A DNA stretch of 32,679 nt, from contig CACBMD010000015.1 of NCBI GenBank assembly GCA_902539895.1, positions 1 through 32,679 of the forward strand, written 5' to 3'. Position 1 is the first letter of the stretch. Each line of letters begins with the position of its first letter. This DNA comes from an uncultured SAR116 cluster alpha proteobacterium (GTDB taxonomy: Bacteria > Pseudomonadota > Alphaproteobacteria > Puniceispirillales > Marisalimonadaceae). Under the pieces are notes generated by a model, which ran no database searches, was not told the DNA's origin, and saw only the letters and a list, made by a program, of their open reading frames with translations. Shown here one piece after another: positions 30,008 to 32,386 of this stretch. Made by a program: the position numbers and the translations under genes.

Positions 30008-30892
30008 ATTAACATTAAGAGAGTTACTCGTATTTATAATACAATACCAATAATTTTTGTTACACTATGGTCATCAGCATTCATTACTAGCAAAATAATA
30101 GTTGATAATTCCCCACCTTTTTTTTCGCTTTCAATAAGATTTGGAATAGTTGCCTTTTTATTTTTCCTATTTTTTATTTTTTTTTCAAAACGTAAATATA
30201 TTTCTTTCAAATCTTTTAAAAATGCTTCCATTAGCGGACTTTTATTCCATGGTTTTTATTTAGGTGGAGTTTTTTTTGCTTTATCTAAAGGTATTTCAGC
30301 TACCCTCATAGCATTAATTGTTTCATTGCAACCTATTCTAACATCATTTCTAGCAAAAGTTTATTTGAATGAAACTTTAAGTAAATTTCAGTGGATAGGA
30401 ATCCTTTTAGGCTTTAGTGGTGCAATAATAATCATAATTTCTGATCTTGTTAGTGGTTTAACTATAGTTGCATTTTTTGCTGGAATTGTTGGACTAGTAT
30501 CTTCTTCACTGGGTATTATTTGGCAGAAAAAAATAGGATCTGATTTACCCTTGGCTGAAAATAATTTTTTACAAGCATTAAGTGCTGCAATTTTTCATCT
30601 TATTCTAGCGCTTTGCTTTGAAAATTTTTTTATAAATTTTTCAAATGATTTTATTTTAGCTATGTCATGGCAAATATTTGCTATTTCACTTGGTGCATTT
30701 TTAATTTTGATGTGGTTGTTAGCAAATAAGAAAGCGAATGAAACATCTACTTTATTTTTTTTAATACCGCCTATTTCTGCTTTACTCGCTTTCTTAATAT
30801 TAAATGAAACATTCACTTCTTATGACTTTTTGGGTTTGTTTCTTTCTTGTCTTGGAGTATTTATGGTTTCAAAAAAGAAAATAAAAATTTAA
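30008..30892 (+). CDS. EamA/DMT family transporter, probable non-canonical start
   Basis: A drug/metabolite-type exporter with about ten membrane helices in two EamA repeats. The frame is open from an ATT at 30008 (preceded directly by an in-frame TAA) to 30892, giving 294 residues, the normal family length. The N-terminal part reads NIKRVTRIYNTIPIIFVTLW (residues 2-21), continuing SSAFITSK, a good EamA helix 1. However, this region contains no in-frame ATG, GTG or TTG before the TTG at 30326, which would delete about a third of the protein, including the first helices. Likely starts are ATT at 30008 or 30014, or ATA near 30044 with AAGAGAG (30017-30023) as ribosome site. The substrate is unknown. 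A hairpin at 30898-30936 follows the stop. Confidence 0.75.
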   Translation: MNIKRVTRIYNTIPIIFVTLWSSAFITSKIIVDNSPPFFSLSIRFGIVAFLFFLFFIFFSKRKYISFKSFKNASISGLLFHGFYLGGVFFALSKGISATLIALIVSLQPILTSFLAKVYLNETLSKFQWIGILLGFSGAIIIIISDLVSGLTIVAFFAGIVGLVSSSLGIIWQKKIGSDLPLAENNFLQALSAAIFHLILALCFENFFINFSNDFILAMSWQIFAISLGAFLILMWLLANKKANETSTLFFLIPPISALLAFLILNETFTSYDFLGLFLSCLGVFMVSKKKIKI

Positions 30893-30897
30893 AGATT

Positions 30898-30936
30898 TTA
30901 CACTATTGTTTTTATTTTAAAACATTGATAGTGTAA
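30898..30936 (+). terminator. Hairpin between eamA and the glycine riboswitch
   Basis: TTACACTAT (30898-30906) and ATAGTGTAA (30928-30936) form a perfect 9-bp stem. Directly inside, TGTTTT (30907-30912) pairs with AAAACA (30919-30924), leaving a 3-nt bulge and a small loop, so about 15 bp in all. It starts 6 nt after the transporter stop. A proper U tract is lacking downstream (CTATATCAT), so it may be an imperfect terminator or an RNA-end-protecting structure that separates the transporter from the riboswitch transcript. Confidence 0.45.
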
Positions 30937-30948
30937 CTATATCATAGT

Positions 30949-31111
30949 CTTTTTATGTGAGAGAGTTAATTATAACCGCCGAAGGAGCAACCACCCCGGA
31001 AACTCTCAGGCACCCGAAACATAAAAAGTTGATAATCTGGAGAGTGATGATTTTATCATCCACCGAAGGGGTAAGCCAGTCTTGGTCAATCTTTCAGGTT
31101 CCGTGACAGAT
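30949..31111 (+). promoter_or_regulatory. Tandem glycine riboswitch
   Basis: Two glycine aptamers lie in series. In aptamer I, P1 is a perfect 10-bp helix (30949-30958 with 31019-31028), P2 a perfect 7-bp helix (GAGAGTT 30961-30967 with AACTCTC 31001-31007), and the conserved core CCGCCGAAGGAGCAACC and CTCTCAGGCACC are present. Aptamer II has P1 ATCTG (31035-31039) with CAGAT (31107-31111), GGAGAGTG, the core CCACCGAAGGGGTAAGCC and CTTTCAGGTTCC. Spacing, core sequences and the short linker match the classic cooperative glycine riboswitch. It precedes the DadA-like gene on the same strand. The promoter upstream could not be fixed. Confidence 0.95.
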
Positions 31112-31147
31112 GGGGTAGTGTTTAATTTAAAATTCTTTGTCACGGGG
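31099..31147 (+). promoter_or_regulatory. Riboswitch expression platform: hairpin hiding the ribosome site
   Basis: CCGTGACAGA (31101-31110) can pair with TCT-TTGTCACGG (31136-31145), giving a 10-bp stem with one G-U pair; UU (31099-31100) and GG (31146-31147) can extend it by wobble pairs. The 3' arm ends in GGGG (31144-31147), the only plausible Shine-Dalgarno, 6 nt before the ATG at 31154. The 5' arm shares 31107-31110 with P1 of aptamer II, so glycine-bound aptamer II and this hairpin exclude each other. No U tract follows, which favours translational rather than transcriptional control. Predicted outcome: glycine turns the gene on. Confidence 0.72.
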
Positions 31148-31153
31148 TTTATT

Positions 31154-32386
31154 ATGAAAAATATTGCAATCATAGGAGCAGGTATAACTGGGATAACAAC
31201 TGCTTACCAACTTTTAGAAAGAGGGTATGTTGTATCTGTTTTTGATAAAAACCGTTATGCAGCTATGGAAACAAGTTTTGCAAATGGTGGCCAATTATCT
31301 GCTTGCAACGCTGAAGTATGGAATAGTTGGTCAACAATAGGAAAAGGTATTCAATGGATGTTAAAAAAAGATGCACCATTGCTATTTAGTCCAAAGCTAA
31401 ACTTTCATAAAATTAGTTGGATAATGGATTTTATAAGTAATATTCCAGACCATAAAAAAAATACAATTTTAACAGCTAAAATGGCCATCAATAGTAGAGA
31501 TGAGTTCAAAAGAATACTAAAAAAAGAAAATATTGAACTAGATCTTGAAGAGAAAGGTATTATGCATTTATGTGAGTGTGATGCATCATTAGAACATGGA
31601 AGAGAGGTTAATAAATGGCTTCTAGAGGCAGGATTAGATAGGAAAGAAATTTCTAAAGATGAAATGTTATCTATTGAACCAACTTTAAATCTTAAGAATT
31701 TTATTGGTGGATTTTATACAAAAAGTGATATGTCTGGTGACATTCATAAATTTACAAAATTACTTGCTGATGCTTGTGAAAGAAAAGGTGTAAAGTTCTT
31801 TTACGAAACAGAAATTGTTAAAGTTGATCATGACAAGAAACAACCAATACTTACCTTTAATCAATCTAATGAAATTCAAAAACAAAATTATGATGGGATT
31901 GTAGTTTGTGCTGGTGTTAACAGTAAATTTATAGCTAACAACTTGGGTGATAAAATCAATATATATCCTGTAAAGGGGTATTCGATTACAATTATGCTTG
32001 ACGATAAAGAAAGCATAAAAAATGCTCCTTATGTGTCATTACTAGATGATAAAGCTAAAATTGTTTCAAGTAGATTAGGAAAAAATAGATTTAGAGTTGC
32101 TGGTACTGCTGAGTTTAATGGTTATAATAAAGACATAAGGGCTGATAGGATTAATCCTCTTATTAAGTGGTGTAACAAGCTTTTTCCTAAAGTGTCTACC
32201 GAACATGCTATACCATGGGCTGGTTTAAGACCTATGACACCAAATATGGTGCCAAAAGTTGGAGGTGGAAAGTTACCTGGTGTATTTTACAACACTGGTC
32301 ACGGACACCTTGGATGGACACTTAGCGCATTTACTTCTCAACAAATTTCAGAGCATATAATGAGAAAGGATAATGTTTTAAATTAA
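31154..32386 (+). CDS. dadA: DadA-like D-amino acid dehydrogenase / glycine oxidase-family flavoenzyme
   Basis: A 410-residue FAD enzyme of the DAO/DadA family that oxidatively deaminates amino acids and, in DadA, passes electrons to the respiratory chain. Visible are the FAD motif IAIIGAGITGITTAYQLLER (4-23), SFANGGQLSACNAEVW (about 43-58) and the C-terminal WAGLRPMTPNMVPKVGG and FYNTGHGHLGWTLSA. I chose the ATG at 31154; the in-frame TTG at 31082 lies inside riboswitch aptamer II and would add 24 unconserved residues. A tandem glycine riboswitch controls it, so glycine itself or a related small amino acid may be a substrate in this organism. It ends 3 nt from the convergent gyrB. Confidence 0.92.
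   Translation: MKNIAIIGAGITGITTAYQLLERGYVVSVFDKNRYAAMETSFANGGQLSACNAEVWNSWSTIGKGIQWMLKKDAPLLFSPKLNFHKISWIMDFISNIPDHKKNTILTAKMAINSRDEFKRILKKENIELDLEEKGIMHLCECDASLEHGREVNKWLLEAGLDRKEISKDEMLSIEPTLNLKNFIGGFYTKSDMSGDIHKFTKLLADACERKGVKFFYETEIVKVDHDKKQPILTFNQSNEIQKQNYDGIVVCAGVNSKFIANNLGDKINIYPVKGYSITIMLDDKESIKNAPYVSLLDDKAKIVSSRLGKNRFRVAGTAEFNGYNKDIRADRINPLIKWCNKLFPKVSTEHAIPWAGLRPMTPNMVPKVGGGKLPGVFYNTGHGHLGWTLSAFTSQQISEHIMRKDNVLN

Follow-up and report, generated by a model that had tools for sequence, protein, structure and literature searches.

The locus analyzed here raises the question of why a riboswitch of the glycine class should stand in front of a gene belonging to a family named D-amino acid dehydrogenase. 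It lies in an uncultured SAR116 cluster alphaproteobacterium (assembly GCA_902539895.1, 1.44 Mb and 69% complete), on a stretch of 32,679 nucleotides, hereafter the window, that makes up the entire contig 15 of the assembly (CACBMD010000015.1). Its close named relatives are marine SAR116 cluster genomes obtained from single cells, and one of these, L141, encodes a protein 94% identical to that of the window. A preliminary description had read the locus as a tandem glycine riboswitch that turns on a DadA-type gene by opening a hairpin over its ribosome-binding site, a reading that our analysis partly supports.

Both aptamers are present on the forward strand and complete, as that description had claimed. 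Aptamer I (30946–31031) and aptamer II (31027–31119) score 61.7 and 57.1 bits against Rfam RF00504, far above the gathering cut-off of 32 bits, and overlap by 5 bases in a tandem riboswitch spanning 30946–31119. They are the only RF00504 matches in the assembly and form its single tandem switch. RNAalifold pairs 30941–30944 with 31030–31033 in a leader–linker helix (P0), giving the tandem arrangement of the class, and the outermost pair of this helix is A-U in 24 and G-C in 11 of 35 leaders, a two-sided change. A variant riboswitch with another ligand (glycine-GGAnGA, RF03166) was rejected, as the match of 68.4 bits falls below the cut-off of 110. The RNA is a canonical, ordinary member of the known glycine riboswitch class, and from this membership it is predicted to bind glycine.

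A probable sigma-70 promoter precedes the RNA at 30906–30934, with a −35 element TTGTTT (30906–30911), a 17-base spacer and a −10 element TAGTGT (30929–30934). The evidence is conservation in the 35 leaders (T 32/35, T 34/35, and G 34/35 in the −35 hexamer; T 33/35, A 34/35, and final T 33/35 in the −10 hexamer); a consensus promoter scan did not list this pair and proposes others, for example 30917–30945. The position of the conserved pair would probably place the RNA start near 30941, close to the leader–linker helix. Transcription attenuation was rejected since no terminator-like site was found in 30850–31170, and control of the dadA-type gene is therefore most likely exerted on translation. 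The gene starts with ATG at 31154. Its longest open frame begins at an in-frame TTG inside aptamer II (434 aa, the added part being window 31082–31153), where gene callers could place the gene start; in some family members (L012, L094) a TTG is apparently the start codon of the same gene.

The leader downstream of the aptamers can form a hairpin in which 31101–31110 pairs with 31136–31145, perfectly except for one G-U. It is present in the minimum-energy fold of the leader (P = 0.999) and covers the Shine–Dalgarno GGGG at 31144–31147, pairing 31144–31145 directly, while four further outward wobble pairs (31097–31100/31146–31149) cover the remainder. The GGGG of the preliminary description holds for the window but not for most relatives, which have GGAG. 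Bases of its 5′ arm are also used by the 3′ side of aptamer II P1 (31035–31039 paired with 31107–31111, RNAalifold), so the computed folds are mutually exclusive, again as proposed, an arrangement expected of a translational ON switch. Enforcing P1 raises the unpaired probability of 31142–31145 from 0.00 each to 0.63, 0.43, 0.15, and 0.33, at a cost in minimum energy of 7.2 kcal/mol for the ligand-free P1 state (−52.4 vs. −59.6); the Shine–Dalgarno is only partly freed in this computed fold, in which ligand and tertiary contacts lie outside the model. None of the shorter transcripts tried had aptamer II P1 in its minimum-energy fold. The stability of the leader as a whole resembles that of shuffled sequences (z −0.34; 68 of 200 shuffles fold as well). 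RNAalifold, given the same 35 leaders, draws aptamer II with P1 and leaves the hairpin undrawn, as competing folds would allow.

Absence of hairpin covariation in relatives carrying the aptamers had been named beforehand as grounds for abandoning the proposal. Of the hairpin cells in the 35 leaders, all from the window's family, 93.9% are paired, compared with 35–51% in slid controls. In 11 of the 35 sequences both sides of one pair differ, with A-U replacing G-C; the remaining changes are one-sided or breaks. Three of five measures (cells paired, cells with a two-sided change, and covariation score) exceeded all 500 shuffles, and two (the number of pairs with a two-sided change and of further pair types) did not. 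Covariation of the hairpin is real and rests mainly on one pair; the five pairs of aptamer II P1, being invariant in the 35 sequences, supply zero covariation evidence.

A duplex between aptamer and Shine–Dalgarno stronger than in dinucleotide shuffles (p ≤ 0.05) occurs in 69 of the 71 dadA leaders of the order, many of which are near relatives of one another. The test fails for L037, a leader without a riboswitch, and for L043, which has aptamers (p = 0.80). The 5′ arm of the duplex lies at and past the end of aptamer II in the f4/g17 leaders (e.g., L079–L082), unlike its position in the window. Seven of 18 gcvT leaders from the same order pass, with start codons assigned by a simple rule, a 19th leader too short and unknown bases in one of the 18 (L105). 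Among loci from a broader genome collection 50 of 79 pass, one more being too short; these comprise all 16 SAR116-family leaders and 34 of 63 others, including L177, which passes despite having no aptamer match, and the other 29 of 63 fail.

The preliminary description had called for a search for conserved linkage between RF00504 and dadA in related genomes, and such linkage is widespread. Among 136 genomes of the SAR116 order, 71 carry NF009074, the family of the window's gene, over cut-off; these genes together with one contig-edge fragment gave 72 loci, and an aptamer lies directly upstream in 71 of them (the exception is G060/L037; L092 retains aptamer II only, at a contig edge). A class-wide sample of 385 genomes contained eight with NF009074 over cut-off, of which two belong to the order; five of the six other genes have RF00504 directly upstream, the exception (G325/L118) being a frame with a stop. 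The genome collection gave an aptamer directly upstream in 79 of its best 80 loci of at least 552, i.e., in the near part of the family, with 16 of the 80 being SAR116 loci that overlap the order's set; here the exception was a Granulosicoccus metagenome-assembled genome (L177). Carriers in this collection include Tateyamaria, Shinella, Ancylobacter, Paraburkholderia, Comamonas, Marinobacter, and Vreelandella, which from their genus names we take to represent many proteobacteria of the alpha, beta, and gamma classes. Outside SAR116 the RF00504 search often reports only the first aptamer.

No RF00504 match was found upstream of 22 sub-cut-off relatives (L119–L140, of which L130 has 226 bases upstream only), nor at E. 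coli dadA or at the paralogue L111 of the same assembly. On a 57-row protein tree the riboswitch label requires 3 changes compared with 19.3 in shuffles, and one gain with two losses is a possible history; the clade's basal branches include L118 and L119, which both lack the riboswitch, and L111 sits on a very long branch. The pairing of riboswitch and gene characterizes the enzyme clade across many proteobacteria and is not special to the window's genome. Chance pairing was rejected, given the hairpin kept in relatives and the linkage in 79 of the 80 genome-collection loci.

We also recorded several peripheral loci. L111 (G000:C3:18754-19950) is a second, distant DAO-family paralogue in the same assembly, with 132.6 bits to NF009074. 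A Comamonas testosteroni NFYY023 gene (L212, 4001–5212) has an internal stop, and its upstream aptamer still scores 80.2 bits. Ten genomes of other alphaproteobacteria (G172, G396, G472, G176, G302, G398, G474, G400, G206, and G404) lack an over-cut-off NF009074 gene yet carry either four or six RF00504 matches.

The controlled gene (31154–32386, forward strand) encodes a 410-aa FAD-dependent amino acid oxidoreductase, a full member of NF009074/PRK12409 at 633.6 bits (cut-off 494), which bears out its earlier assignment as DadA-type; NCBIfam names this family 'D-amino acid dehydrogenase'. The Pfam DAO match is 215.8 bits, and a predicted model built from 34 sequences (pLDDT 85.4) has the DAO fold. 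Among solved structures glycine oxidase tops the list of similar folds (Foldseek E 4.3e-24), and fold comparison gave Z scores of 37.8 for glycine oxidase (4ysh), 36.8 for L-proline dehydrogenase, and 36.6 for sarcosine oxidase, values too close for the fold to choose a substrate. The enzyme scores 136.1 bits against the ThiO model TIGR02352, below the cut-off of 250.8. The Arg of its WAGLRP motif is invariant in the 34 sequences and aligned in glycine oxidase 7cyx; we take this residue to be the holder of the substrate carboxylate. Identity to E. coli DadA, an annotated D-amino acid dehydrogenase, is 31% over 403 residues, and the two share a C-terminal GHGxLGWT motif. Because of this likeness the electron acceptor may tentatively be placed in the respiratory chain.

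If the enzyme disposes of glycine, the other routes for glycine in these bacteria become relevant. In the order, 41 of 136 genomes have GcvP over cut-off; the window's family contributes 0 of 58, and a single 17.6-bit match there (G030) was not accepted as real; a split GcvP would show, the larger half scoring 327–350 bits elsewhere, and was likewise rejected. GcvT over cut-off is found in none of the 40 genomes of the window's genus. TIGR00528 matches occur in 38 of these 40 genomes, all below cut-off, and the idea that the genus hides such a cleavage system was discarded; the nearest match (233.2 bits vs. 235.85) is in a 794-aa frame of G029, and most others are in frames of about 370, 980–1016, or 300 aa, which we read from their length as other GcvT-fold proteins. 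On these counts the window's family lacks a glycine cleavage system.

Within the order the two genes tend to exclude each other. Among 43 genomes that are ≥90% complete and ≤5% contaminated, a hand-tabulated set in which species are not independent, 16 have dadA only, 15 GcvP only, 3 both (the SAR116 genomes G039, G084, and G133), and 9 neither (Fisher p = 0.004); the GcvP count leaves out the weak match in G030 as well as fragments seen in G104 and G118. Replacement of the glycine cleavage system is no strict general rule, since 12 of 20 non-SAR116 genomes with a dadA-type gene have GcvP over cut-off and 3 more have it as split halves, with no match in 5. Because the two mostly coexist outside SAR116, the enzyme would there be an additional glycine outlet in most carriers; it would be the remaining one in the window's family. 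Sister lineages yielded 19 riboswitch-fetched loci with full-length or nearly full-length gcvT hits, and a riboswitch match is missing from some of the order's genomes with gcvP (e.g., G085, G106, and G107). A SAR116 genome with 6% contamination carries, in addition to the riboswitch before dadA, another one in front of a gcvT fragment (L107; G120:C153).

Malate synthase G, which could act as glyoxylate sink, is found over cut-off in 27 of the 40 genus genomes, including the window's assembly, and is matched in all five genus genomes that are ≥90% complete. A riboswitch at malate synthase in this assembly was looked for among the RF00504 matches and rejected, there being none. A 372-aa GcvT-superfamily protein whose score does not qualify it as GcvT is located ~11 kb from malate synthase G (G000:C7:36226-37155 and C7:22778-24919), and similar spacing is seen in relatives such as G012, G015, and G032. 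The riboswitch linkage, the missing glycine cleavage system, and malate synthase G together favor glycine as substrate without proving it, and we rate the chance that the enzyme oxidizes glycine as about even.

By a modest margin we favor the reading that the riboswitch is a translational ON switch of a glycine-disposing flavoenzyme. Without glycine, 31101–31110 would fold onto 31136–31145 and hide the Shine–Dalgarno; glycine would stabilize aptamer II, whose P1 would take 31107–31111, block the hairpin, and allow the flavoenzyme to be made. The enzyme would then oxidize glycine, probably to glyoxylate and ammonia, with electrons passing to the respiratory chain, and glyoxylate would be converted to malate by malate synthase G. 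Excess glycine would leave mainly through this enzyme in the window's SAR116 family; in other carriers the enzyme would mostly act beside the glycine cleavage system. Glycine would very probably switch expression on, and the reverse, in which glycine lowers expression or acts through mRNA stability with the hairpin not being the switch, is improbable: the Shine–Dalgarno that stays partly paired when P1 is enforced and the 29 of 63 non-SAR116 leaders failing the duplex test would fit it, but a conserved hairpin that shares bases with P1 and hides the Shine–Dalgarno, and the lack of a terminator-like site in 30850–31170, argue against it.

The substrate leaves more room for alternatives. The family name, together with the 31% identity and the common GHGxLGWT motif that link the enzyme to E. 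coli DadA, is what would be expected if the enzyme acted on D-alanine or other D-amino acids and glycine were a signal only, possibly as excess glycine disturbs alanine and cell-wall metabolism. We consider this unlikely, as the DadA-like relatives (L120–L140, 299–336 bits) have no aptamer match and the anticorrelation with GcvP within SAR116 is unexpected for a role in the cell wall. Glycine could also be the product, released from an N-substituted glycine (sarcosine, iminodiacetate, or a glyphosate-like compound) in a feed-forward loop. Sarcosine oxidase beta subunits and iminodiacetate oxidase do follow closely behind glycine oxidase in fold, and the frames with a GcvT-like domain (about 980–1016 aa, identified by length) suggest sarcosine or dimethylglycine catabolism; yet an enzyme that forms glycine and is activated by it would drive glycine higher, and ON switches tend to control glycine degradation and OFF switches uptake (available text of PMC6944388), making this quite an unlikely explanation. 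Returning to glycine as substrate, we put forward only tentatively that the PRK12409 clade is an unrecognized, riboswitch-linked respiratory glycine dehydrogenase (glycine to glyoxylate), one more target through which the glycine riboswitch would govern glycine disposal, next to the cleavage system and malate synthase; that gene and riboswitch may have been dispersed together among the alpha-, beta-, and gammaproteobacteria; and that the enzyme may have replaced the glycine cleavage system in SAR116 lineages, where glycine might consequently feed malate instead of one-carbon units.

Here the known ligand of a riboswitch names a metabolite that matters to an enzyme family labelled by similarity only. 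If the glycine reading is true, it would correct how a gene carried by many proteobacteria is annotated, give the glycine riboswitch another target, and explain glycine disposal in ocean bacteria without a glycine cleavage system. Published targets, in the portions available of PMC2211319, PMC3766115, PMC6944388, and PMC12452182, are gcv genes, glcB, serC, serA, sdaA, glyA, transporters, and COG4198; twelve orthologues assigned to 'glycine metabolism' are counted, without being named, in the available text of Sun 2013 (PMC3766115), and that of Kazanov 2007 (PMC2211319) mentions further annotated targets, also unnamed. The texts searched, which excluded supplements, contain no report of a glycine riboswitch before a D-amino acid dehydrogenase gene, our literature search returned nothing on PRK12409, and the SAR116 papers searched make no statement on glycine, gcv, or riboswitches save for glycine betaine. 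PMC5760752, in which both riboswitches and D-amino acid dehydrogenase are mentioned, concerns an unrelated subject. The target looks unreported, and it may already be listed in supplements.

Among known systems, the RF00504 switch before gcvT, present in several genera of the same order, has the same two aptamers, linker, and leader–linker helix; it differs in its target and in the duplex test, passed by 7 of 18 gcvT leaders versus 69 of 71 dadA leaders. The SAR11 glycine riboswitches before gcvT and glcB, as described in the accessible parts of PMC2704228, PMC5069720, and PMC2211319, resemble the present case in belonging to marine alphaproteobacteria with small genomes and in having a non-gcv target, but the target here is an amino acid oxidoreductase and the switch is on a different contig from malate synthase. 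ThiO (PDB 4ysh, 1ng3, and 7cyx) shares the fold, and in 7cyx the aligned WAGLRP Arg, whereas the window's enzyme is below the ThiO cut-off and has GHGHLG in place of the GHYRNG motif of 7cyx. E. coli DadA, for all its shared identity, falls on the tree outside the riboswitch-linked clade and has a locus without the aptamer, and NF009074/PRK12409, of which the window's gene is a full member, records no glycine link in its name.
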